Below are positions 2,718 through 23,373 of a stretch of 25,780 bases of DNA, in pieces; within the stretch, counting starts at the first letter, position 1, and each line of letters begins with the position of its first letter. The notes below the pieces were generated by a model. The model was given only the letters and a program-made list of their open reading frames with translations. It had not been told where the DNA came from and ran no database searches. The stretch spans positions 1 to 25,780 of the forward strand of contig RCSS01000540.1 in NCBI GenBank assembly GCA_004000155.1, in the 5' to 3' direction. The translations under genes and the position numbers were made by a program. Origin of the DNA: Tubulinosema ratisbonensis. Its lineage: Eukaryota > Microsporidia > Tubulinosematidae.

Positions 2718-3656
2718 ATGAAGACTCTTCATCTGAATTACAGATCATTATCAAGGATAATATCATTTCCTTCAAAAAAGTTATTAGCTACCTTTGGTGG
2801 CAGGTCAGTATTTATTTTAAGTTACTTAGATGAACTAAAAATACTTATTCATTTCATAGACGAAGATCCAAAAGAAAATTTTTTATGCGGAACATTTTAC
2901 ATCGAAAATAAGAAAATTAAATTAGCTTTATCAGGCGAAAGTGGTATTATCAAATTATTAAATGTGAATGAACATAAAATAGAGGGATATTTAAGACAAC
3001 ATGGAGGAAAGGTTTATGATTTGAAAGGTCATCCTAAGGATANNNGTTTACTTTTTAGTTGTAGTGAGGATATGACTGTTAGGATGTGGGATGTTGTTGA
3101 GAAAAGGTGTTTGGCTATTTTTGGTGGATATATTGGTCATAAAGATCATATTTTGTCAATAGATATTAGTTTATGTGGCAAGAAATTGGTATCTGCAGGC
3201 ACAGATTGTGTGATTAAAGTTTGGAACATCCCTGAAAAAACAGATTTTCTTCAATTAATTTATTTTCCTATTTATTCATCATCCAAAATACACAAATCTT
3301 ATATTTCATGTGTAAAATTCTATGGCTTATTGATAGTCTCTAAATCACATTTTAACAGAATCTCAATTATCTGCCCCGAGACTAAGACAGTCATCTACAA
3401 ATCATTTATCAACTCAGATTCTTTTTTTATAAGTGATTTTACTCACTCTAGCAATTTTAAAGATCATTTCGATTTGAAGAACAATAAAATTGTTTTGTGT
3501 ACCCAAGAAAAAGAAATTCTTTTGCTTAAACTTGATAATTTAGAAGAGGATATTGTTACTAAAAAGAAGAGAATGAATGTTGGTGTGAAGGATGTTGTTT
3601 TGNNNNATGAATGTATTTATTTGTTGGATGAAGATTCGGTGGTTATGAAAATATAA
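2718..3656 (+). CDS. EED: Polycomb EED/ESC-like WD40 protein (PRC2 subunit)
   Basis: This 312-residue WD40 protein matches EED/ESC along nearly its whole length, not just at generic WD repeats. Family-specific stretches include ATFGG (24-28), D-x-KENF (50-55), SGESGIIKLLN (72-82), HPKD (105-108), SCSEDMTVRMWD (114-125), CLAIFGGYIGHKDHILS (131-147), SAGTDCVIKVWN, IHKSYISCVKF and a final LDEDSVVMKI. EED is the beta-propeller scaffold of Polycomb repressive complex 2. It binds EZH2 and reads H3K27me3 to stimulate further methylation. The long acidic N-terminal tail of animal EED is missing (312 versus about 441 residues), typical of microsporidian shrinkage. Ambiguous bases at 3043-3045 and 3603-3606 keep the frame. 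Aligned positions of the methyl-lysine aromatic cage are only partly aromatic. The start is the first in-frame ATG. The family call is firm; complex function is inferred. Confidence 0.85.
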   Translation: MKTLHLNYRSLSRIISFPSKKLLATFGGRSVFILSYLDELKILIHFIDEDPKENFLCGTFYIENKKIKLALSGESGIIKLLNVNEHKIEGYLRQHGGKVYDLKGHPKDXXLLFSCSEDMTVRMWDVVEKRCLAIFGGYIGHKDHILSIDISLCGKKLVSAGTDCVIKVWNIPEKTDFLQLIYFPIYSSSKIHKSYISCVKFYGLLIVSKSHFNRISIICPETKTVIYKSFINSDSFFISDFTHSSNFKDHFDLKNNKIVLCTQEKEILLLKLDNLEEDIVTKKKRMNVGVKDVVLXXECIYLLDEDSVVMKI

Positions 3657-3926: not shown

Positions 3927-4289
3927 ATGGATTTAAGAAAAAAATCAAGACCAAACGAAAAGCAAAAAAAATCACTCTGGGAACACTTTTTCAAAAACAA
4001 AACACCAAACAAACCAGAAAGAATTTTATTAGCCAATAAATTAGGTGTATCAGTAAAATACATAGAAAATTGGTTTAGAAACACTCGTGCCAATTTCAAA
4101 AATAAACTTAAATCTGATAATTTATTTGGAAATAATGTTGTTATAGTACCTTATTGTATGGCATTACTAATTAAACCTAATTTGACTGATGTAGAGAAAT
4201 ATATTTATTTGGTGATGAAAGGATGTAATGTTCCAATTCTTATTAAATTTAATTACGAATCAAAGAAATATTCTTTATCTTATTGGTAA
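3927..4289 (+). CDS. Small homeodomain transcription factor
   Basis: This 120-residue protein carries a homeodomain at about residues 2-61. Key positions fit without gaps: Leu17 (homeodomain position 16), Phe21 (20), Trp49 (48), Phe50 (49), Asn52 (51) and Arg54 (53), in the recognition-helix motif WFRNTRA. Position 50, which tunes DNA specificity, is Arg, and position 52 is Thr where Arg is usual. The N-terminal arm is rich in Lys and Arg. The remaining 60 residues form no domain I recognise. Microsporidia are known to carry a set of short homeodomain proteins, and this fits that group. It lies 270 bases downstream of the EED-like gene on the same strand. CCTAA just before the ATG resembles the sequence ahead of the cullin start. 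DNA targets are unknown. Confidence 0.85.
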   Translation: MDLRKKSRPNEKQKKSLWEHFFKNKTPNKPERILLANKLGVSVKYIENWFRNTRANFKNKLKSDNLFGNNVVIVPYCMALLIKPNLTDVEKYIYLVMKGCNVPILIKFNYESKKYSLSYW

Positions 4290-6599: not shown

Positions 6600-7559
6600 A
6601 TGAAATATAACATTAATATAACATCGTTTAACGTAAATGGAATACGCTCATTCGAGAAACACGTAAAAGAAAAATATAACAAATCACTAAACGATTTCTT
6701 CTTATCAACACTTAGATCAGAAATAATTTGCTTACAAGAAACCAAAACAAACCAAATCTCCGATTACTCATCAATGAAAGATTACATTTCATTTTTTTCT
6801 GTTAACAAGAAAAAAAATGGGTACTGTGGGGTCACCACTTTTATTAAAAAATCATTTTATGTAAATAAAGTGATTTATGATGAAGAAGGAAGGTTTCTTC
6901 TAACAAACCATAATTCTTTTATAATTTTGAATGTTTATTTTCCATTTTTCGATGAAAAAAATTATAAAAAAGATTTAGAAAGAAAAAGAGAAGAAGTCAT
7001 AGATTTTTATAAAAAAATAGAAGAAATAGTAAATAAAAACAAATGTGTTATTTTGTTAGGTGATTTTAATGCTGTTTATGATTTTAAAGATCATTACCAA
7101 TACATCAAGGAATATGACAAAGTAAGAGAAATTAACAAAGAAATTCAACCAATCAGAAAAGAAAATCCGTTACCAACCGAATTACCTTTTTCTTTTTTTA
7201 ATGAAAAAGATTTAAAAAAATATCTTTTTTCTACTTTTCAGAGAGAATGGTTGTTTAATTTTTTGCAAAGAAACACTCATTACGATTCGTTTAGAAAGAT
7301 TTATCAGAATGAAAGGAAGAAATATACTTGTTGGAATACATTACTTGATTTAAGAAGTAAGAATTTAGGAACCAGAATTGACTTAATTTTGATACCGAAA
7401 GAGATAAGTTTAATAAATAGTGAAATTTTAACACATGTTTATGGCTCTGATCATTGTCCTGTGACTGCTTTGGTGGAAGTTGAATGTAATTTTGATGAAA
7501 AAAATCTTTGTAAGAAAAATAATAATTTATTGAGTTTTCTTAAAATAAATAAAATATAA
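6600..7559 (+). CDS. APN2: AP endonuclease 2-type exonuclease III family DNA repair enzyme
   Basis: This 319-residue exonuclease-endonuclease-phosphatase fold protein cuts DNA at abasic sites and trims blocked 3' ends in base excision repair in the nucleus. Catalytic motifs are all present: FNVNGIRSF (residues 10-18), metal-binding Glu47 in CLQETK, the GDFN pair Asp155/Asn157, Asp261 in GTRIDLIL, and Asp284/His285 in GSDHCPV. The segments REWL, DSFR, YTCWNT and RSKNLGTRID are more like Apn2/APEX2 than APEX1. The C-terminal extension with PCNA motif and GRF zinc finger of yeast and human APN2 (about 520 residues) is absent. I chose ATG 6600; an in-frame TTG at 6570 is less likely. An N and a T homopolymer at 6581-6589 leave open a start at 6578 in the true sequence. 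Confidence 0.88.
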   Translation: MKYNINITSFNVNGIRSFEKHVKEKYNKSLNDFFLSTLRSEIICLQETKTNQISDYSSMKDYISFFSVNKKKNGYCGVTTFIKKSFYVNKVIYDEEGRFLLTNHNSFIILNVYFPFFDEKNYKKDLERKREEVIDFYKKIEEIVNKNKCVILLGDFNAVYDFKDHYQYIKEYDKVREINKEIQPIRKENPLPTELPFSFFNEKDLKKYLFSTFQREWLFNFLQRNTHYDSFRKIYQNERKKYTCWNTLLDLRSKNLGTRIDLILIPKEISLINSEILTHVYGSDHCPVTALVEVECNFDEKNLCKKNNNLLSFLKINKI

Positions 7560-8522: not shown

Positions 8523-10448
8523 TTAAGGTATATAACAAATAACCCCATCTTCCTCCTTGCAATACCTCTTCCTGACAAGATTATTAATAATCTCATCAAT
8601 CTTTTCATAAAGATACCCTTTCATATTCATAAAAATAAACAACTCATTTTTACAAACCTTTTTTTTGTTCTTCAATATCTTCATAATTAACGATTCAATC
8701 AAATAATTCTCATTCACTGATACAAAATGATTTTCCGTCGCAAAAATATTTGTAGGTATTCTAAAATAATTTTTCTTTTCGCTGTTAAAATCATAATTTA
8801 TAAAATATAAATTATCTTTTTCATAAATGAAATTGTTGATTGACAAATAATCTAAGTTTTCTTTAAGAAAAGGATCATTTGTACAATTTTTTAGTTCTAA
8901 AAAAGATAACTGATTTTCTTCTAAAAAAAGAAGAAGAGATGCTAAATCAGTGTTAATGTCAATTAATTGATCATTAAAACTGATTGTTATTTTAGAGATA
9001 CTTGGTAAAATAGTAAAAGAAGATCTTTTATAATCTTTTCCCAAAAAATCAACATATTCTGAGAAATAAGAGTAAAGTGAAGAGTGTAAAAATACTTTTT
9101 CTTCTTTTAATGGCCAGAATCCTTTAGAAAGAAGTTTAGGATGAATGTCTTTGTAAACAAATTCATTAGATTTTCTTAGATCATTTATCAAATGACATGA
9201 TTTATAAAAATCATCAGAGGAGAGAATATGAGAAATAAAATTTAACAAATGTTTTTCATTTTCTAAAATATTGTCATTAAACAGAAGAAGTGATTGTAAA
9301 TTATGTATTATTGATTCACCGATCCTCTTATCATCCTTAATTAGTTTAACAAAACTAATCAAACATTTTTCTTTCGAGGATCCTTTTACCAAAAGTTTAA
9401 CTAATTCATCAATTAATTTTTTCTCAAACTCAATAATTTTATCAAAACTCTCTTTTAAATAAAAAGAATTGATTTCTTCTCTGTAAAAACTTAAAAGAAT
9501 CTTTCTAATTTCTTTATTATTTTTCATATTTTTCTCAAACAAAACGTAAAAATACGAAAAAGAAGAGAAAATATCAGAAAAATCAAAATTATTTTTCTTG
9601 CTTTTCAAAAATAATTCATATTTGTAATTAAATATTTTTAAAGAATTCTCACCTAAAAATTCTATAAGCTTATAAATAAATAAAATTTCCTTTTTTTGAT
9701 CAATTCTTTTTATAATTGTGTCTGACATCTCTTCATTTCTAAATTCTAATAATGTGACTATTCTACGATTAATATCACANGAAACATTTGAATCAAACAA
9801 TGAAGAAAGATTGACCAATTCTTCATAAACATTCATACAAACGAATTTGATATTCTCTTCAAAATTGATTCTTTTACAAACACTTTTTATATATTCATTC
9901 GTAAATTCTTTTACCTTTTCATCTTTACCAGAAAAAATAAGCACCTTTTTGTAAAAATTAAAAGCTTTTTTTAATTGGTCACCATTCACTGTTTTATCTC
10001 TAAAAAGATTTAATTCAAAGAAATACAATTTGTAAAAAGAGCTTCGCAAGTTTTTAAGATGATTGTTGTAATAAAATTGGTAAACTAACTGTCTAATTTC
10101 TTTAACATCTCTTTCATTCTTCTTAATGATATTAGTTTTAATGAAATATCTGGTCAAATATGAAAAAATTCCTTCCAAAACTTTTAAACTTTTTTCTAAT
10201 TTTTCGTACTGAAAATTGAATTCTTCTAAAGAATCAAAGATACTCAAATTAACAGTGTATTTATCTAAGATGTCTACCAATAATTTGTAGATTGGGTATC
10301 CACGTATTTCATAAACATTGGTTGGTTTTGAGCAGAATGAGAATATTACATTGTAAGCATTTATAAAGTCTTCTGAGGTGATTTTTTCAGGATAGTTTAA
10401 TGCTTTGTATGAAACTTCTGTTATGATTGTTGTTTCCATTTGATTCAT
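8523..10448 (-). CDS. CUL1: Cullin, Cul1/Cdc53-like ubiquitin ligase scaffold
   Basis: The protein has 641 residues counted from ATG 10448; a TTG seven codons upstream is in frame. The N-terminal repeats match cullin-1/Cdc53, for example INAYNVIFSFCS (about 29-40), the Skp1-contact helix region, and LEGIFSYLTRYFI. The C-terminal domain ends in the typical winged helix with IIN-LVRKRYC and a terminal CYIP like the cullin YVA/YLA end. The neddylation segment aligns without gaps (LIMKILKNKKK), and Lys593 sits at the modified position. Cullins hold a RING protein at the C-terminus and a substrate adaptor, such as Skp1 with an F-box protein, at the N-terminus, forming SCF ligases. It is about 100 residues shorter than usual. 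One N (9780) lies inside. Cul1 versus another cullin class is inferred from the N-terminus. APC2 is less likely because the neddylation motif is intact. Confidence 0.85.
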   Translation of the reverse strand: MNQMETTIITEVSYKALNYPEKITSEDFINAYNVIFSFCSKPTNVYEIRGYPIYKLLVDILDKYTVNLSIFDSLEEFNFQYEKLEKSLKVLEGIFSYLTRYFIKTNIIKKNERDVKEIRQLVYQFYYNNHLKNLRSSFYKLYFFELNLFRDKTVNGDQLKKAFNFYKKVLIFSGKDEKVKEFTNEYIKSVCKRINFEENIKFVCMNVYEELVNLSSLFDSNVXCDINRRIVTLLEFRNEEMSDTIIKRIDQKKEILFIYKLIEFLGENSLKIFNYKYELFLKSKKNNFDFSDIFSSFSYFYVLFEKNMKNNKEIRKILLSFYREEINSFYLKESFDKIIEFEKKLIDELVKLLVKGSSKEKCLISFVKLIKDDKRIGESIIHNLQSLLLFNDNILENEKHLLNFISHILSSDDFYKSCHLINDLRKSNEFVYKDIHPKLLSKGFWPLKEEKVFLHSSLYSYFSEYVDFLGKDYKRSSFTILPSISKITISFNDQLIDINTDLASLLLFLEENQLSFLELKNCTNDPFLKENLDYLSINNFIYEKDNLYFINYDFNSEKKNYFRIPTNIFATENHFVSVNENYLIESLIMKILKNKKKVCKNELFIFMNMKGYLYEKIDEIINNLVRKRYCKEEDGVICYIP

Positions 10449-10909: not shown

Positions 10910-12229
10910 TCATTCATCAATCAAAGAAGAAGCTTCTCTAATATTCTGAAAAATAATCTCTTTAAGTTTATAAATTAAATTAATAATCTCATCAGTCTCA
11001 AGCTCAAACTTAGATGTACTATCCATAATCTTATATTCTAAGTCACNTTTCTTCTTTTCTAATTCTGATTTGGTATCTTTGTATAAATTATATTTCTCTA
11101 ATGTTCTTTCATATTCATTCTTTACTTCATCAGTGCAAATGTAAAGATTTTTAGAAAAATTGTATTCATTTTCTTTGTGTTTTCTTAATTTTTCCTGTAA
11201 ACTTTCTTTTTTTTTATTTTCATGATCACTTTTTAGTTTTAGTGATTTAATAATTGCTTCTTTTTCTTTTATCTCGGATAAAAAGTTGTTTAATTTGCCT
11301 GACAGTTCATTACTTTTCATTTGTAAAGAGTCATGTTCATTCTTAAGATTGTTNATTACTTCTAAATTATAAGATATTTGTGTNATTTTTTCATAATTTT
11401 TGTTTAAAAAGTTTGATTCTTTGTTTAATTCTTGGTTCTTTATTTCTTCTGATTCTAATTCTTTAACCATTTTTTCAAAATTTCTTTTTAATTCTTCAGG
11501 GTCAGAAATGAGGTAATTCTGGTAATTTAAAGATTCTTGTTTTTTATTTTGTAATTCTAATTTAAGATTTGAGATTGAATCTTCTAAAAATTCTTTTTCT
11601 TTCTCAAATTTACTGTNTTTTTTCAAAGAATCTTCNATGTATTTTTCTAATTCATTCCCTGATTGTAAAATATTCTCAATCTCTTTTTCTAAAACAATCA
11701 CTTCATAAGCTAATTTGTCTCTTTCTTCACTAAACTTATTGAAATGATAAGATATTTCATTTATTTGTTGGTTTATTTCTTTTATTTCTTCATTCTTTCC
11801 TTGTAATAAATTCATTCCATCCTTAAAAATACTTATTCTCATATCTCTAAACATAGAAAAACTTACTAAAATAGAAGGAATGGCAATNAGTTTCTTAGGT
11901 TCTGGTTTAAGAATCAATTTAATAGAAAAATTATAAACACCAATCATATTCAACAGTTCATTCATTCTTCTATGCACATTTACTAAAAAGAAAGTGTCTT
12001 CATGCTCTGTGGCTAAAGGATTGTCCTTTAAATCTTCTAAAATGTCTGAAAATGATTGGTTGGTAAAGAATTCTAGTAATGTGTCTAATAATTTTACAGT
12101 TGATTCTAAAGATGGTCTTAGTAAATCATTTGTGTTTATTTGAATGTCTTGTTCAGCAAAGTAATCTTTAATATCTTTTACTGTTAGTTCAGGCACAGTG
12201 TAAGTTTCTTGTCTTTTTGTTCTTAGCAT
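10910..12229 (-). CDS. NUF2: Kinetochore protein Nuf2 (Ndc80 complex subunit)
   Basis: This 439-residue protein has the two-part Nuf2 layout. A calponin-homology-like head spans about residues 10-135: PELTVKDIKDYF, DLLRPS at 35-40, and the family signature LKPEPKK at 107-113, which is followed by the FRDMR helix. A long Glu/Lys-rich coiled coil runs from about 145 to 430. Nuf2 pairs with Ndc80 (Hec1); with Spc24/Spc25 they form the complex that links kinetochores to spindle microtubules. Length is close to yeast Nuf2 (about 450), so little was lost. The start is an ATG preceded by AAACC. Six isolated N bases fall inside the gene and all keep the frame. Neighbour genes are unrelated in function. 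The call rests on the head domain, since the coiled coil alone would not be diagnostic. Confidence 0.88.
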   Translation of the reverse strand: MLRTKRQETYTVPELTVKDIKDYFAEQDIQINTNDLLRPSLESTVKLLDTLLEFFTNQSFSDILEDLKDNPLATEHEDTFFLVNVHRRMNELLNMIGVYNFSIKLILKPEPKKXIAIPSILVSFSMFRDMRISIFKDGMNLLQGKNEEIKEINQQINEISYHFNKFSEERDKLAYEVIVLEKEIENILQSGNELEKYXEDSLKKXSKFEKEKEFLEDSISNLKLELQNKKQESLNYQNYLISDPEELKRNFEKMVKELESEEIKNQELNKESNFLNKNYEKXTQISYNLEVXNNLKNEHDSLQMKSNELSGKLNNFLSEIKEKEAIIKSLKLKSDHENKKKESLQEKLRKHKENEYNFSKNLYICTDEVKNEYERTLEKYNLYKDTKSELEKKKXDLEYKIMDSTSKFELETDEIINLIYKLKEIIFQNIREASSLIDE

Positions 12230-13741: not shown

Positions 13742-15567
13742 GTAAAAAATATTAGAANATTTTTTAAATTATAAAATTTTATTTACTTTTTAATTGTTCA
13801 ATATATAAAAAATGTTTTTTGCATTAAATTTACTTTATCATCTTGAACTTAACTAAACTCGGCTTGGTTAGTTTTATTTAAGTAGTTAATAGGCATATTT
13901 TAGAATTAGGTTTTATTATAATTTGATTTATATTTAAAAAAATTAAAAATTATTTTTTTTAAAATATATAAAGACGTAATTTATCAATTATGCAATTTTA
14001 GAAAATCCTAAAAAGACAAAGCTTGTTTTCGATATTGCGATTTGTTGTTTTGGGTTATAAGAATTTCCTTTATAGCTACTATGGCTTTACTATAATCCCT
14101 TATAAAAGATATTTTTAATGACAGCTAAAATTTTTTTGTGACTTGAATGTTTTGTATATTTTATTGCAATAATATTTTTCGTCTATGGGATCATACTTTT
14201 TCATTGATAGCTAATAATATTTTATGATGTTTTATAAAGGATATTTTGGCATTTGTTTTTTCTAAAATATTGAAATGGCATTTGACTTATGGAATTAAAA
14301 AAAGATTTTTTGTTGCCTATGGTTCGGAAATCAGTTTGAAGATCTCTTAGTATATCTTTTTATATAATATTAACAACTTGTTATAAGAAACATATAATTA
14401 AAATGAATCTACATAATTAGGCATAGCGCGAGATACTGCGATTCTTTCTCTGAGTAAAACCAATCTTCTTGTATTCTCTAACACACTGATTCTACTTTAT
14501 ATTGTAGCAATGAAGATTATAATGTATTTGTTACTGGAGGATTATTGAGCACAAAATTTTTCAAACAAAACAAAAAACACCAAAAAATCTTATAAATGCA
14601 TCTTAATCAAAATCTGATAGTCTATATTACAGCTATTGGATTATTTACTCAAGCGCGTTAAATTTAGACACAAAAATTGTAATGCTTTTATTTTATTCTA
14701 ATTTGTTTATGCAACTAAGAAGATAATTTTAAAAATAATTTATGCAATCACCTAAAAAATTATATTTGGATATTTTATTTGTTGGTTTGTGTTATTTTAT
14801 TTAAATATGTTTAAAAAATTAAAAAAATCAGGTCAAAATTAGAAAAACATACATTTCGTAACATACACTTACAAATCATATACTTGGAAAATAATAGAAT
14901 TGGAAGTTAGATTTATGAATAAGCTCAATTTAATATTAATAAAGTTTTATTAAATAACCTAGTTAATACCTTGATAAGTTACTAATAGACAAATCAATTA
15001 TAACAATAAATACTTCTTTTAACTTTTATAACAGTGTATATAATGATTAATAAGTTGTAACAAAAAAAAGAACCCCAAAGAATGCAAACTTTTTATGGTT
15101 AGTTATTGGATTTAAAATAAGAAAAATTATTTTTTAATGTTAAATCGAGATTAAATACATTTTATATTAGGGTACAAATGTTTTAATGTCGATAAAACGA
15201 TACTATATATAAGTCGAATAATTAAAATAAAGTTTAAAAAAGTATTTTTATATGAGAACTTATAAGTCTAAATAAATTTATAATTCTTTGAGTATAGGAG
15301 TTAAATTCATCTATAATAAAATGTTTTCGAACCAAATTATATTTAAAAAGTTACTTTCAGATCACTTATTTCAAAACAAGTGATTTTATCAATTAACCTT
15401 ACATATTTAAAAATTTTTTATATCTTTTTGTAAAAATATATGAATTATCGTAAAATTTAAAAAAAATATCTATACTTGATAAAAAGTTTCGGATAAAATT
15501 TTTTATTAAATTGTTTTGTTTCTATTATCAAAATTTTTATTTAAATATTTTTTGATTTTTTTACATT
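13742..15567. other. 1.8 kb non-coding stretch with repeat copy H
   Basis: No intact gene. It contains repeat copy H (14306-14510) and weakly coding-like fragments (for example 14523-14726, with one in-frame TAA at 14604). These may be relics but match no family I can name. An imperfect hairpin around the AACTAA and TTAGTT arms lies near 13850-13880. Confidence 0.45.
14306..14510 (-). repeat. Dispersed A-tailed repeat, decayed full-length copy (copy H)
   Basis: On the minus strand the core GCAGTATCTCGCGCTATGCC, the segment AGAGATCTTC and the end CATAGGCAAC plus A are recognisable at the expected spacing. The hairpin region is mutated and the 5' border (near 14510) is approximate. Confidence 0.65.
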
Positions 15568-16276
15568 ATGAGGAAGAATACTGGAAAAAATAATCTTACG
15601 AATAACTTCTCATTACTTAAAAAATGTAAAAACTGAAAAAAATTGGAAAGTAAAGAGGATTTAATTAAAAATCCTTTTTTCAAACAAGAAAACAGAATTT
15701 TTGGCTTAAAGAAAGCAGAATTATACGGCTAGTCAATTTATTAGTTTTGTCGCCTGTTATATATTTTGTTTTAACTTTATTTTGTTTTGTTCCTTTAAAG
15801 GGTAATCTCGAAAGTTTTATTTTCTTTATCTATTTGATAATAAATCTACTTTCTTTTATTTATGGAATAGTTTCATGTGTTGTTAATTTGGACCGAAAGT
15901 TTGGGATTATATTTTATATTTTAACTATTTTAGCTTTCTTATGGCCGCCTTTATTGCTTTTGCCATATATTTTTCTTAATTTGAATTTTAGGATAGAATT
16001 TAATGTTGTGGTTGTAAGAACTTTGTATGTTTTTTATTCATTGTTTTTTTTTATTATTATTATCAAATATAAAATCTCATGGTTATTTATCTTAATTTCA
16101 AAACATCACATTTTTTAATTGATTTTACAATCTTTAATGTTATTAACTCTTTGTTTTTTCTCATTACTATTCTTGAGGAATTTATTGTTACAACATTAGA
16201 AGAAGAAAATTTGTTTATAAATGACATTATTTTTTATATCAATACCAATATATTGTATTATGTAATAAAAAATTAA
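15568..16276 (+). pseudogene. Broken multi-pass membrane protein gene, paralogue of the 23.4 kb gene
   Basis: From ATG 15568 the frame encodes 22 residues to a TGA. The same frame then continues through a segment with IFGLK and meets a TAG at about 15730. The reading must then shift to another frame, which encodes at least three hydrophobic helices until 16118. It must shift again to a frame ending at 16276 that carries LFFLITILEEFIVTT. The order and content parallel the intact 290-residue protein at 23377-24249: a charged N-terminus, IFGLK, several helices, and a final VYIIFSYLELYYVTS. At least one in-frame stop and two frameshifts disable it. Sequencing error could explain some of the breaks but hardly all. 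An intron model is less likely because I see no clear splice sites. Confidence 0.6.
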
Positions 16277-16633
16277 GAATTGATCAAACTCTAAATTCTT
16301 TAACATTTTAAATGTTTAATAGTTTTTCTTTTATATAATAATTAAAATTTTAATATTTTTATAAAATAAATTCTAAATTTATCAAATTTGAAATTAAAAA
16401 TTTTATACTTTTATATTAAAAAATTTCCTGAGATTCTTCAAAAAAATCTTATAATTTTTTGTAAGAGAGTGATAAAAATAAATTTAATATGATATAAAAA
16501 AATAAAACAATTGTTTAATAACTAAATGTTAAAATTCAATGTCTTTTACTCATATATCCCTTTTTAGTTTACATGCTTATATACAATTACTTTTGCATGT
16601 TTTTTATTGTGCTTTCTATTATAATATATTTTT

Positions 16634-16851
16634 CCTATAAAGGCCTGCAATATTTGGTAAATTTAGACAGTCAATAGCGTGTTTGAGATAGGTTATATGA
16701 ATCAAGGGCTTTCAAATATTGTTCTATACCTAGTTTTGTAGATTAATATTTTATCTAATGTTTTTTAGTGAATGGATATCTTATATAATATAAAAAGAAG
16801 TATAGAGATAAAAAGCTGCATGGATTTTCCATCGTGAGATAGCAAAAAAAA
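16634..16851 (+). repeat. Dispersed A-tailed repeat, full length (copy G)
   Basis: Recognisable in order are GGCCTGCAA, ACAGTCAATAG, GGGCTTTC, CTATACCTA, GAAGTATAG, the hairpin ATGGATTTTCCATC and AGC plus eight A. It is diverged but collinear with the 22.6 kb copy from end to end. Confidence 0.7.
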
Positions 16852-17404
16852 TCAATCTTGCAATTATAACTGATTTTCATATCAAAGATTTTGTTAGTTT
16901 ACTGACTTTTTGGAGGCGTTTTGTAGAATTCTCAGCTTCCTAAATTACATAAAAGATTTTTTATATAGTATTTTATATTTTTGTCTTTTTAAAGTACAAT
17001 CTTAGTATTCCTTAGCATTCTTTATGAGTTTTAAAACTAGATTATATAAATAAAGAATTAAAAATTTTAAATTGTAACTTTTTGATTCAAAGTACAAAAT
17101 CAGAGGTCTCGGACAGCTCTTTTGCTTTTTATTGTCATTATATACCAAAATAATTTTATGAAAGCATTTTAATTGATAATGAAATAAAAAAGTAGATTTT
17201 TTAAATGAAAGTTCTATAAAAAGCATAAGAATTAAGTTAACATAGTTAACCATTTCTACTTTTTATTATAGACGATTACAACGCAAAAAGTACAAACTGG
17301 AAGTGGTTTATTAAAAAATGTACAACACGACAAGGTTGTATAGATTTCAAGACAATATTGCAACCTTTATGGTGCTGTCAGATTACAATCATTCACCTTC
17401 TGTA

Positions 17405-17552
17405 TTAGACTTTTAAGACAATAAACTATTTCGAATAAAACACTGCTATACTATGGACATGAATTCATTGCATATTACTAGATATTTATATTGAATATAA
17501 AAGGTATTTTAAAAGATCTTTGTATGGATTCCCTACTCCTAAGCAACAAAAA
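17405..17552 (+). repeat. Dispersed A-tailed repeat, decayed (copy F)
   Basis: The 3' part is clear (AAAAGATCTTTGTATGGATT, then AAGCAAC plus five A). TTAGACTTTTAAGACAATA and GCTATACTATGG upstream match the middle of the family. The left border is approximate. Confidence 0.6.
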
Positions 17553-17896
17553 GTTTATTGAAAATTTAGTTAGTAATGAAGTGATGGCGCAAATAAAAAA
17601 TTTTTAGATTATTACGGCGGCTAACAAGCAAAAGATGTTGTATTATAAAACAACATAAATTCTGCATCAGACAATGGTCTTGTCGATTTTCGAGTGATTT
17701 AAAAAATATTTGCCTTAAAAAAATTATATTTAATTCAGTTTTCATACTAGATAATGTTAAAATACATCATATTTCTGGAGTCAATAATGGACAAGAAGAA
17801 TTAAATTAAACATTATGTATTTACCTCCATGTTCCCCCTTTATAATCATAATCGAAAATTCTTTTTAAAGTCGAAAAACTATATTTGTCGTGTGAT

Positions 17897-18037
17897 ATGT
17901 GTCTCAAAGAGAAACTATTAAATGCTATTAAAAGTAAATTTAATTGCATTACAACTGAAGATTTGGCAGAATTTTATAAAAAACGTTATAATTTTTACTT
18001 AGATGCAGAGGTTTGGAGAATATTTTTGATTAAATAA
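17897..18037 (+). CDS. Possible 46-residue protein, unrecognised
   Basis: A 46-codon frame opens at the first ATG after a CCCCCTTT run at 17834-17841. The product is helical-looking and balanced in composition (KEKLLNAIK, TTEDLAEFYKKRYNFYLDAE), unlike chance AT-rich translations. A second open segment in another frame follows at about 18075-18130, so this could instead be the surviving front of a broken gene. The CCC run is 59 bases from the ATG, farther than at other genes here, which weakens the case. No homologue recognised. Confidence 0.3.
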   Translation: MCLKEKLLNAIKSKFNCITTEDLAEFYKKRYNFYLDAEVWRIFLIK

Positions 18038-18696
18038 TGTTTAAAAATTTAAACTTTTATAACATTTTTATTTAGAATCGACTGAAAAGATTATGAATTT
18101 CATTGAAAAAAATTATGATTTAAAAATATAAAATATTTTAATTAAATGGTCGATGATTTTATTAAATTAAAACAAACCCTCTATAATTAATTTTTTACAT
18201 TATAATTAAATTGATAAAAAAACTAATAAATTATTATCTATTTAAATTTAAAATTTTTACTATTTTTGTTATGCTTCTTTATTTTTAATTTTTATATTGG
18301 GAAAAATTTGAAGAAGTGTCTGTACATAAAAAAAATTTATTTACTAAAAGAAGATTAGACCAGCAAATAAAATTTCTTTATACACAACTATAAGAAATAT
18401 TTCTTGAAAAAAAGTAATTTATTAATATTCAAAATGATTCTCAATTGTGAAAAAAGCTATTTATATTTAAAAAAGTATAACTTACCCTTAATAAGTTGTA
18501 TTTATGGCCCGAAAAATATATCTCAAGGTGTTATTGTAAGGTATATTAAGGTGTTTTTTACATAAATTACAAGGCTAAAGTAAAAAGTTAACAAAAAATT
18601 GTATTTTTTACAATTATATATGGTTTGTATTGTAAAACTTAATGCTTAAAATATTAATTATATTAATACAAATAAATAAGAAATATTATTTATTTA
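18038..18696. other. AT-rich spacer
   Basis: I see no gene or repeat copy. The stretch contains short open segments only and T-rich runs. Confidence 0.4.
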
Positions 18697-18837
18697 TCAT
18701 TTTATTTTGTACTTTACATCAGAATTATATGAAATAAGGGTGTAATAAGCGAATGCAAATGAAATTATAGTTGAAAATGCAAAACATATGATATTCTTTT
18801 GTTTCTCGTTCAAAGATCTAAGATAAGACACAACCAT
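18697..18837 (-). CDS. 46-residue single-pass membrane protein
   Basis: A short gene: CCC directly followed by ATG (minus strand, 18837), 46 codons, then TGA. The product has a polar N-terminus (residues 1-15, including SLNEKQKN), one hydrophobic helix at about 16-36 and a charged tail ending KYKIK. This is the layout of small accessory subunits of membrane complexes such as translocons, oligosaccharyltransferase or V-ATPase, but I see no motif that decides between them. The CCC-ATG junction is the same as at the 79-residue gene and at 23377. Codon composition is richer in G and C than the surroundings. It is easily missed because of its length. Confidence 0.55.
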   Translation of the reverse strand: MVVSYLRSLNEKQKNIICFAFSTIISFAFAYYTLISYNSDVKYKIK

Positions 18838-18840
18838 GGG
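18838..18840 (-). promoter_or_regulatory. CCC start-proximal signal
   Basis: CCC (GGG on the plus strand) directly abuts the ATG of the 46-residue membrane protein gene, as at 1145 and 23374. Confidence 0.45.
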
Positions 18841-20810
18841 TTTAAAATATTTTAATTTTTAATTAAAAAAATAATTATTTTAATATACGAATTAATAAAA
18901 TAGTTATTTTATTGTATAAATCAAATAAGTAAATTTATTACAAAAACTAATTAAATTATAAAAAACAGCTAAAAATAATCATTTATTAAAAATATCACAT
19001 AAAAATAGAGAAACAAAAAAATATTTAGAAAATAAAAGAGTTAAATTAAACATTCAATTGAAAAAATCTTATTTTTTTATTAAATTAGAAAGTTATTTAA
19101 AAAAAAAATTAATAGCATAGAATAACATAAGAACTGTTTATTTTAAGAACCTTACATTATGAAGTTTTTCATAAAATTTATTGATTTTGAGAAAAAAGTG
19201 ATTTTTATGAGGAAAAAAATAATGTTTATAAATTTCGTATTTCATAATAGAATTAGACAAATTATTGTTTTATAACTTTCAAAAAAAAATTGGCTTGAAA
19301 GGACTTTTATTTAAATCAAAATTGAGATTCAAAAGGTTTCTAATTATGCAAGAATTTTTAGTTTACTTAATACGTTTAGAAATTCACTACAAATTAAAAA
19401 AAAATAAGATTGGATATTTTAGATATGTAATTAAAGGGCATGGTTGTTTTATTATTGCTATATGGATGTGTTTGTAAAATTTTTGTTTACATCAAATCTA
19501 GCATGCTTATTTTTTATTTAAAATGAAAATATATTTGAATTTGTAAAATAAACAGAATAATTTTTTATTTCTTATCTCGCTAATATTTTTTTCTCCTAAA
19601 TATAAAACATTGACTTATTTTAAGTAGCAAAATATTATTTTTGTTGTATTTTTTAACATAATTTTTCTTAGCACATAGGATCGACCCCCTTTAATTTTAT
19701 AATTTTTCGTTTATATTTCTTTGAGAAAAATAATTTATCTTAAAGAGAAGAAATTATTTTTATTCAAAGAAATATCTCAATTTATCTAAACACTTATCAT
19801 TTAGATTATAAGCCAATATATATGACAGTATTTAATTAAAGTTTATATGTAGGATAAACAATAAAACATTTAAAAAGGAGGGGTTTTGTTTGGTTAAATA
19901 GTATAAATTTCTATGAGTTGAAAGTTCACACTAAACAAAAAAAAAGTTAGCTGTTTTTTTATGAAAATTGAATTTTTTATTTTTTTTACACTATTTCACA
20001 ATATAGAAATATAACTTCTATTTATCTTAAAATATTTTATTGTTTAAATAATGATATCATAACACAATTTTGTAATCAAAAATTATAACTTAAGATAACG
20101 TATTATTTCGCGACAGCAAGAACTGCAAAAAAAAGAATGCAAAAATCAAAGAATAATTTATTAAAACATAAAATATATATTATGCATTTTTGATTTTTAA
20201 ATCTGATCTTTGAGTTCCTCTTTGTATTGTTCTTTTTTATATATTGAATAAAAAATTGATTTTTTCATGTAAAAAATTACTAATAATACTAAATAGTAAC
20301 TGTAATATTGTATCTGATTTAATATTTTACCTTTTTTTGTTTTATTCAACTTGAAATTATCAATAGCTTAATTTTATAATATTTCTAACAAAATGTGAAG
20401 TAATGAATAAAATTTATATTTTGCATGTACAATCTAGATAACATATCATTGTATTTAGAATTTGGCACTATATAATTAAGTTTAAAGATTTGGAACAAAT
20501 CCCTTTAACTAAAAAAAAGTAAAGATAGAGGGTTCAAAACATATATAAAAATAATTTATTGTGAAAATAAATAATATGTATCTCTGAGATCTTAGATCCG
20601 AAGGAACTACAGTCGCACAAACCAATAAAATGAAATTAATGAGGTTCTCGATTGTGAAGTTGGTTGTTTTGATTGCTTTCTTCAGAACCAACTCTCATAA
20701 TCATGCTAAAAAAAGTATTTGATAAGTTGTTTAATATTAAGGTTGATTTTTTTAATAAAAAGCTATTTAAAACATTTCAAAAATTATTAAAGGCTTTTAT
20801 TGTGTTATAG
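18841..20810. other. 2 kb non-coding stretch
   Basis: No supportable gene. An 82-codon stop-free plus-strand frame at about 19232-19477 lacks a convincing ATG and any recognisable motif. A block at about 20580-20700 is visibly richer in G and C than its surroundings and may be an eroded upstream part of the retroelement relic that follows. Confidence 0.4.
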
Positions 20811-20973
20811 AATTGCTTCAACATTTACATATTACAACCCAACTATATTAAGCAAGTAGAAGACAGATACAAGGTTTTATTGCTAAATTACCTTTCGGGT
20901 TGGAATGTGTTGCTATAATATTTAATAAATTTTTAGAAAAATTTAATTTATAAATTTTATCTTGATTTTAAAT
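20811..20973 (+). mobile_element. Ty3/Gypsy-type reverse transcriptase relic
   Basis: Three frames together give successive reverse transcriptase motifs in the right order. FNIYILQPNYIKQVEDRYK (20817-20873) resembles the F-x-x-LDL-x-SGYHQI...EDRYKT block. LPFGLECVAIIFNKFLEKF (20888-20944) is the PFGL-x-x-AP-x-x-F block. At about 20947-20973 FINFILIL is a mutated form of the Y-x-DDILI active site. Frameshifts separate the three parts, the catalytic Asp positions are lost, and spacing is shorter than normal. This is a dead fragment of a long terminal repeat retrotransposon pol gene. Known Ty3/Gypsy elements occur in many microsporidia. No flanking LTRs or integrase were recognised. Confidence 0.55.
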
Positions 20974-22570
20974 CTTAACTTTAATACTTTTTTTAAAATA
21001 ATGAACAAATGATTGTTTTACGGTTTCTTTTATTTTTGAAAAAGTCATCTATCAACAGTATTGATTAATAATAAATAAAACTTTTCAAACTACATGTTAA
21101 GGTAAGCACAAATATAAACCTTCTCTAACATACCTAAAACATATTTTTAATGTTTGTTGATTTTTTATTGAAAACATTTTAAATTTTTGATGCTTATTTA
21201 ACACATTCGTTTTTATACTTTAAAGTTTGATCTAATAACTATAAAAAACATGTAAATGTGATCTATTATTTATTTATAGCTTTGTTAGACTTTTTAATTA
21301 TAGATATAACATATGGTAATTGTTGATAATGTTTTGAGAAATTAAAATTTGTACGATTTTATTACAAATTTTTAAATTTCGATAAGATTCTTACCTTTTA
21401 TGTAAATACTAAAATTATTAAAAATAAATATATAGAAATGATAGTATGTAATTAAGAGCATGTCGTGGAGTTTCAATTAGAATTTAGCATAAATTTTTAT
21501 TTTTATTGTAAAACCATCAAAAAAGTCATTATAAAAAATTAGTAATATATTGAAAAAAATATAATTTTTTAAAAATGTACACATCAAATATAGTATAGAA
21601 ATATTTAAAAGGATTTTATATGAAAAATTATTTTTATCGTTAAAAAACGATTTTCGGGTGGCTTTACAAAAAGTCACTACTTTTGATTTAATCATATTTT
21701 TAATATATAAATTAAGTGCAAATTTTTTACTCCTTCTAACATAATTCAAAAAAAATCTTTAAATATTTGATCAATGTACTTTTTTAAAAAACCAATTTTG
21801 AAAAAAATCCGTTTAAAAATTGTAGTTTATTGTCTATAAGCAACAATTCACCAACAAAAAATTAATACCTTAAAACAGCAGTAAAGAAATCAATTAATTA
21901 TTAATTGTGGTAAAGTTTTATAAAACAGTACTTAATTCTAAGAGCAATTATATCCCGTTTTGTTAGGATGAAAATCTTTATATAAACAGATTTTAATATT
22001 ATACACTAAAACAAAAAAAATTTCGATAAAATATTTAAATTATAATCATATTCATTTAAACAAATCTAAATAAGACATATAGATGAGTCGATTATATTTT
22101 CGCAGATGTCATTTTCTTTATCCAATCTACTTATTGATTAAGAGAAAAATTTGCGTCATCAGCTATGGTAAACCTTAAGGTTTAAATATTTTTTAAAAGA
22201 ATTTTTAAGACTAAATTTTCGCTCTAATGCGTTTTAGTATTGAAAATTTTATGTTTTTTACAAGTTTATTATTTATCTTCAAAAATGATTAAATAAATGT
22301 ATTCTTAAAAAAATGTTTTTAGTTTTTTAATTTCATTAACCTGTTTAAAAGATTATGGCTTATTAATAATTTTTTAGATGTTTATCAAAAATAAAACATA
22401 ACAGCATTAAAAATTGAAAAAAAATACCTATATTTTTTAAAATTTTTAGTCAAAAAAATTACATATTTCAAGTTTTTGATATTATTATTTGATTTATAAC
22501 GATGTAAGAAGGGTTTTTGCTTGTAAATCTTTAATAATTCTTCTGATTATAAGGTAAATATTTTACAATT
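20974..22570. other. 1.6 kb non-coding stretch
   Basis: No supportable gene. A 90-codon minus-strand frame at 21477-21749 opens with TTG and has no signal or motif. The sequence is otherwise AT-rich and broken in all frames. Confidence 0.45.
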
Positions 22571-22577
22571 GACTCTT
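22571..22577 (+). repeat. Putative 7-bp target site duplication of repeat copy D (left)
   Basis: GACTCTT here is repeated at 22805-22811, just past the A-tail of copy D. Confidence 0.55.
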
Positions 22578-22804
22578 ATCCTGTAACCTAAGCCTGCAAG
22601 GTAAGGTAGACTTTGGCAGTCAATAGAGTGCACGGGGTGTGTTTTAGCGGGTGAAAGGCACGGAGTATCTTGAGCTATACCTAAGTATGGGAAACACATT
22701 TTACCGTATGTCTCCGTCAACTAGGTATAAATATTCTTATAAAGAAGATATAGCGAAAAGATCTTTGCATGGATTTTCCATCCCTAGGCAACAAAAAAAA
22801 ATTA
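22578..22804 (+). repeat. Dispersed A-tailed repeat, best-preserved copy (copy D); SINE-like element
   Basis: The element is about 225 bp, with a 5' end at CTGTAACCTAAGCCTGCAAG and a 3' end at CCTAGGCAAC followed by nine A. Its G+C content is much higher than the surroundings. Near the 3' end ATGGATTTTCCAT can fold into a 5-bp hairpin. GACTCTT flanks it on both sides. Seven more diverged copies in the window share the ends and order. The oligo-A tails vary in length, some copies are shortened at the 5' end, there are no inverted terminal repeats, and no long frame is encoded. These points fit a SINE or the tail of a LINE. I see no convincing tRNA-type A and B boxes, so its RNA parent is unknown. 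A 63-codon frame inside it is not a gene. Confidence 0.8.
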
Positions 22805-22811
22805 GACTCTT
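22805..22811 (+). repeat. Putative 7-bp target site duplication of repeat copy D (right)
   Basis: This is the second GACTCTT, following the A-tail of copy D. Confidence 0.55.
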
Positions 22812-23373
22812 TTGCTTAGGGTTTGTTGTGTTTGTTAATTAATTTATATGAAATCTATTTTTACAATAGAAGTTTATACAAAATATGATGATTACGAAAA
22901 ATATGAGAAAAAATTAGTTTTAAAGGCATAAAGCTTCAAAAGTAAATATAGAATAATGTCAAAATATTTATTAAATATTGTTTATAACATTAATATTGTA
23001 AATAAAATAATTTTAAAAGTATTATTTTTTTGTATAGTTGTATTTTAAAATAAATAATTATTATTTTAATCAATCAATCAATAAATAAATAAATAAATAA
23101 AAAGTTTAATCATTGAATATAAATATAAGAATCTAAATTAATCCATATTTTTAATAAAAACTATATTTATTTGATTTCATAGAAAAATTAAGTAGATATA
23201 CAAAATTTATAATTTTCAAATTTTATAAATAAAAACTTTATCTAACAAAAAAAAAGAGAGCTTTGATTTATCACAAACTTGAAATTTTTTGATAAAAAAA
23301 CTTTCAAACATTTTTTTATATGATAGATAATCTTAGAATCTTTTTATTATTAGATAATATTTCAAATTTTTTA
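22812..23373. other. AT-rich spacer with microsatellite
   Basis: No gene. Contains a tetranucleotide microsatellite at about 23070-23102 and probably the promoter region of the membrane protein gene at 23377. Confidence 0.45.
23070..23102. repeat. Tetranucleotide microsatellite (TCAA then TAAA units)
   Basis: About three TCAA units run straight into five or so TAAA units, followed by an A run. Confidence 0.7.

Follow-up and report, generated by a model that had tools for sequence, protein, structure and literature searches.

The window analysed here is the whole 25,780-nucleotide stretch of a Tubulinosema ratisbonensis contig, read on the forward strand. Near its start, on the plus strand at positions 2718-3656, lies an orthologue of EED/ESC, the propeller subunit of PRC2, encoded as a 312-aa protein in an intact frame. 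Two short runs of N, neither assigned to a strand, fall within this frame (three at 3043-3045 and four at 3603-3606), and the frame runs on past both in register with related proteins. Adjoining it on the same strand is a homeodomain gene of 120 aa (3927-4289; Pfam Homeodomain, 6.2e-11), which is of interest as context only. Further downstream are an exonuclease/endonuclease/phosphatase-family protein on the plus strand (6600-7559; Pfam 1.7e-12) and, on the minus strand, the kinetochore protein Nuf2 (10910-12229; Pfam 1.5e-18) and a 641-aa open reading frame (8523-10448) that has no Pfam or PDB sequence match and whose C-terminus resembles, by eye only, a cullin neddylation tail. The segment from 13742 to 23319 (~9.6 kb) contains no ATG-initiated reading frame of at least 100 aa, its longest stop-to-stop frame being 149 aa (15669-16118); there is no Rfam or tRNA match within it and nothing convincing in Pfam for nine of its frames. 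Such a segment is odd in a compact genome and is perhaps degraded sequence.

Several features identify the 312-aa protein as EED. Residues 24-218 have EED as their top PDB match (E 2.7e-33), and stretches specific to the family are present, such as AIFGG-x-x-GH-x-D. A profile built from an alignment of nine relatives matches EED as a single collinear stretch of 170.2 bits that spans profile positions 22 to 282. Full-sequence profile scores nevertheless place repeat-rich WD40 proteins above EED (2ymu in one search, seven proteins in another), and Pfam, which shows no EED model here, ranks WDR3 and THOC3 first, all below cut-offs, as might be expected if the gene belonged to a different WD40 family that merely resembles EED. 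Such higher totals, however, are sums over repeats, which in 2ymu reach at most 27.4 bits each, compared with 170.2 bits for the one EED stretch. Because the sequence score alone leaves the identity unsettled, folds were compared as well. The predicted fold of a 64%-identical relative (P0001) is a seven-bladed propeller whose nearest neighbor among solved folds is EED, and in the ranking of this model 41 EED rows stand ahead of every other propeller among the matches listed. The same genome also encodes E(z), as described below. Membership in another WD40 family is thus hardly credible: the gene is EED, and the presence of the EED homologue noted in the preliminary description is confirmed.

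The microsporidian protein resembles the EED of animal and Chaetomium PRC2 over the whole length of the propeller, with 308-310 residues aligned at 1.7-2.1 Å and 24-26% identity. Its N-terminus begins at approximately residue 84-85 of human EED, and at 312 aa it does without the long insertion that, in the available text of PMC8788455, characterizes most of the fungal EEDs studied. Various names are used for related proteins in the protein database, among them “uncharacterized protein” for Vittaforma, “WD repeat protein” for Spraguea and “polycomb protein EED” for a single metagenome. The alignment used below consists of 31 rows, namely the window protein and 30 of the best 120 of 150 database matches; the other 90, among them P0009, P0111, P0116, P0125 and P0129, were left out, and some of these may also be EED. 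Four of the 30 rows are microsporidian by name (P0003, with the code Antlo1, P0008, P0106 and P0109), the others being assumed to be so by similarity. No Encephalitozoon protein is named among the best 120 of the 150 matches to EED, although E(z) is found in that genus, and it is therefore possible that some relatives possess E(z) without EED.

A SET-domain search of the organism's own 4.117-Mb assembly points to one place, on contig C3, where a 525-aa reading frame scores 131.1 bits against EZH2 and 88.0 against Chaetomium EZH2 (phmmer), compared with 71.9 for the best SET protein outside the E(z) family, NSD2. The E(z) SET protein with CXC region whose absence had been named as grounds against the preliminary description is therefore present. 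When a profile of 16 proteins of this type is compared with one of 14 other E(z) proteins, the CXC-SET region matches with a probability of 100 over 209 columns, and the catalytic columns N473, H474, D510 and Y511 are invariant in all 16 rows. Upstream of CXC-SET, 59 columns around DDPVLRFIPYI correspond to the SAL/SRM region with a score of 48.5, where 30 column shuffles reached 17.8 at most, and the CxxCxxxxCxxH motif of E(z) is likewise recovered (45.1, against a maximum of 17.9 in 30 shuffles). The EED-binding helix (15.3; shuffle maximum 17.8) and the SANT region (11.8) do not rise above column shuffles in the same comparison. The C3 protein thus shares with E(z)/EZH2 the CXC-SET region, an SAL/SRM-like motif, the CxxCxxxxCxxH motif and the catalytic residues, but differs from the animal proteins in being shorter (525 aa, compared with 670-750) and in having unrecognizable SANT regions and EED-binding helix.

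In a 40-row tree of E(z) proteins, composed of the organism's own sequence and 39 of 76 matches, the own protein falls within an 18-row clade (support 100/99) that includes three proteins from Encephalitozoon, as well as Ordospora, Astathelohania and a protein filed under the louse Menopon. This placement agrees with the microsporidian origin proposed in the preliminary description. A search of the genome with a microsporidian SSU rRNA model returned no match. The Menopon-filed sequence (P0014, Menopon gallinae PYX00_011795) comes from a record marked UNVERIFIED_CONTAM; its position deep inside the microsporidian clade makes it probable that a microsporidian was present in the louse sample. 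With EED and its E(z) partner encoded in one genome, the PRC2 core is present at the level of genes.

In mapping the site at which EED reads its mark, we take Trp364 to be the fourth residue of the aromatic cage of human EED. The available portions of the structural literature describe a cage for H3K27me3 that includes Phe97, Tyr148 and Tyr365 (PMC13068663) and in which, in Chaetomium-based structures, the H3K27me3 peptide is still seated (PMC6002473). In the window protein, Phe247 (codon 3456-3458, plus strand) is profile-aligned to human Trp364 and Lys248 (3459-3461, plus strand) to Tyr365. A by-eye mapping of these two residues to Phe236 and Phe237 was discarded, as the printed HMMER alignment and the order in which the strands follow one another in the model both give Phe247 and Lys248. 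The candidate for Tyr148 is Phe55 (2880-2882, plus strand), although in the profile alignment the position may alternatively be deleted, the surrounding stretch lacking one residue relative to human EED.

Unlike in animal and Chaetomium EED, the positions of Tyr365, Trp364 and Phe97 carry no aromatic residue in most of the aligned rows. The Tyr365 column (248) is aromatic in none of the 31 rows and the Trp364 column (247) in four, with a gap in 21, while the three candidate columns for Phe97 (11-13) are aromatic in two, zero and zero rows. As judged from these alignments, the H3K27me3 cage of these EEDs looks much eroded. The preliminary description had argued that EED implies a surviving H3K27 methylation system; that premise presumes an EED that reads H3K27me3, and it needs to be changed for a protein whose cage appears to have decayed in this way. 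Aromatic residues do persist in the neighborhood, at the Tyr148 candidate column (55) in 24 of 31 rows, at column 244 in 19 and at column 56 in ten, and the rows resembling Vittaforma are gapped exactly at the cage region. Because nearby aromatics are common, because of these gaps, and because the SRM-like motif of the E(z) partner is conserved, it is possible that the cage has been rewired, with neighboring aromatics standing in for the canonical ones.

A rewired cage would suit an ordinary PRC2 with H3K27me3 read-write feedback, in which the cage residues have been replaced and SUZ12 and RbAp48 are either too divergent to recognize or situated outside the assembly. The known job of the SRM is to answer EED-bound H3K27me3, and its conservation speaks for such a complex, as do the aromatic column at Tyr148 and the aromatics near the other cage columns; set against these are the Tyr365 column and the Phe97 columns, where aromatics are absent or nearly so. 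In other species, according to the accessible part of PMC6002473, the SRM responds to EED-bound H3K27me3 and E(z) activity requires both EED and the VEFS region of SUZ12. Family searches of the assembly yielded no candidate for SUZ12 (VEFS box) or for RbAp48/Nurf55 (CAF1C), but the control searches were silent everywhere, so that neither result carries weight; moreover, the sections available of several fungal studies indicate that SUZ12 can diverge past detection (PMC9018016, PMC10538959, PMC7348808). Overall, we regard a conventional feedback-driven complex as rather unlikely.

Fourteen WD40 reading frames were listed in the genome, none of which was recognized, mostly by eye, as RbAp48; three of the others were also run against Pfam. 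The best candidate, on contig C171, has no CAF1C_H4-bd Pfam match and no RBBP4 among the 60 PDB matches listed; by eye it is closer to GRWD1/Rrb1. Another WD40 protein, on contig C69 (L026:397-1605, plus strand), gives a weak match to the Tup N-terminal domain that is below the cut-off (E 1.4e-5) and is possibly a Tup1-type corepressor. Neither a family search nor two typed query sequences turned up histone H3 in this assembly, so that Lys27 cannot be read from it; an assembly gap, a withheld stretch or sequence divergence may each account for the missing gene. The only core histone recognized, by eye, is an H2B-like reading frame (L005), and the other four histone-family matches resemble, again by eye, factors of the NF-Y/DR1 type. 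Searches of the genome for BAH and JmjC domains gave no candidates, each control having produced a signal in one genome, below the cut-off.

The genome also encodes a single HP1 protein, on contig C75, with a chromodomain (3.4e-15) and a chromoshadow domain (5.3e-6) in Pfam and with CBX5 as its top PDB match. The pairing of an E(z)-type SET protein with HP1 recalls Encephalitozoon, in which the proteins are probable orthologues of those described here, although they have not been matched by accession. As the text available to us describes it, the telomere-to-telomere study of that genus assigns “Clr4/EZH2” together with Swi6/HP1 to an inferred H3K9me3 heterochromatin, H3K27 being absent from that text (PMC10158259). 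This assignment to H3K9 methylation differs from the present reading. It is what would be anticipated if E(z)-EED had become a general heterochromatin writer, of H3K9 or of both marks, with HP1 as reader and the H3K27 service lost, and the single SET place, the single HP1 and a Pre-SET search of the genome that gave no candidate (its control being silent) all lean the same way. The diagnostic parts that were tested, however, are all of the E(z) type, namely a CXC rather than a Pre-SET region, the SAL/SRM-like segment and the CxxCxxxxCxxH motif. An active-site motif reading SYLF was considered as a sign of H3K9-type enzymes and set aside, for this variant is found in protist E(z) as well, among the 76 matches. 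Conversion to a general writer therefore strikes us as improbable.

The reading that we prefer, with a probability of roughly 0.78, is that the genome encodes a minimal PRC2-type core of E(z) and EED, with EED acting mainly as scaffold and activator and HP1 as a possible reader. The EED propeller would bind the E(z) protein of contig C3 and, through the SAL/SRM-like motif, keep it in its active shape. The enzyme would then methylate a histone lysine, which by homology would be H3K27, and thereby silence chromatin; methylation of H3K27 by this core seems likely on such grounds. Since the trimethyl-lysine cage looks eroded, EED would contribute mainly as scaffold and activator, having presumably lost H3K27me3 reading, and the mark may be read elsewhere, for example by the single HP1-type chromodomain protein. 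Counting against this reading are the EED-binding helix of E(z), which scores no better than shuffled columns, the missing histone H3, the lack of a named Encephalitozoon EED among the best 120 of 150 matches and, uninformative as those searches were, the lack of SUZ12 and RbAp48 candidates; the aromatics close to the mapped cage columns also weigh against the cage argument. A partial parallel is provided by the PRC2 of Cryptococcus neoformans (Ezh2-Eed1-Msl1-Bnd1-Ccc1), which, in the portions of the reports available, is a model with no recognized SUZ12 and with a chromodomain protein that reads H3K27me3 (PMC8788455, PMC7348808). There, Ccc1 is a purified subunit, whereas the microsporidian HP1 is known here from a gene in the same genome alone.

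A microsporidian E(z) is already published: according to the accessible text of a 2022 survey of fungal SET proteins, several Microsporidia carry genes of the E(z) type (PMC9692433). EED-like proteins, moreover, occur in several named microsporidia, so the rarity put forward in the preliminary description is weaker than claimed. Its assignments of EED and of a microsporidian genome stand, as does the E(z) partner that it called for, and its interpretation is thus supported in part. Among the papers listed by literature searches none was on a microsporidian EED, and the string “microsporid-” is absent from the main text, as available, of PMC9018016, PMC10638273 and PMC8788455.

Of the new observations, the one of greatest interest is that the reader cage seems to be lost across these EEDs, in combination with only one SET place and one HP1 in the genome. 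It is conceivable, though we consider it doubtful, that these belong to one merged heterochromatin system, in which E(z)-EED is the only, or nearly the only, SET methyltransferase, EED lacks its cage and HP1 serves as the reader. The read-write loop is thought to be the main contribution of EED, and elsewhere Polycomb and HP1 silencing are separate. If the merged system is real, the loop would be dispensable and the two kinds of silencing would form one pathway.

The E(z)-EED core is gone from the yeasts and from Aspergillus fumigatus. If the minimal core proposed here is borne out, it would be retained in some of the smallest eukaryotic genomes even though these have dropped the part of EED credited with the self-propagation of H3K27me3, a natural test of which function of EED is indispensable. 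The listing of E(z) from Microsporidia as a gene of H3K9 methylation would also be corrected, and facultative silencing would be indicated as a regulatory layer in these microsporidian parasites.
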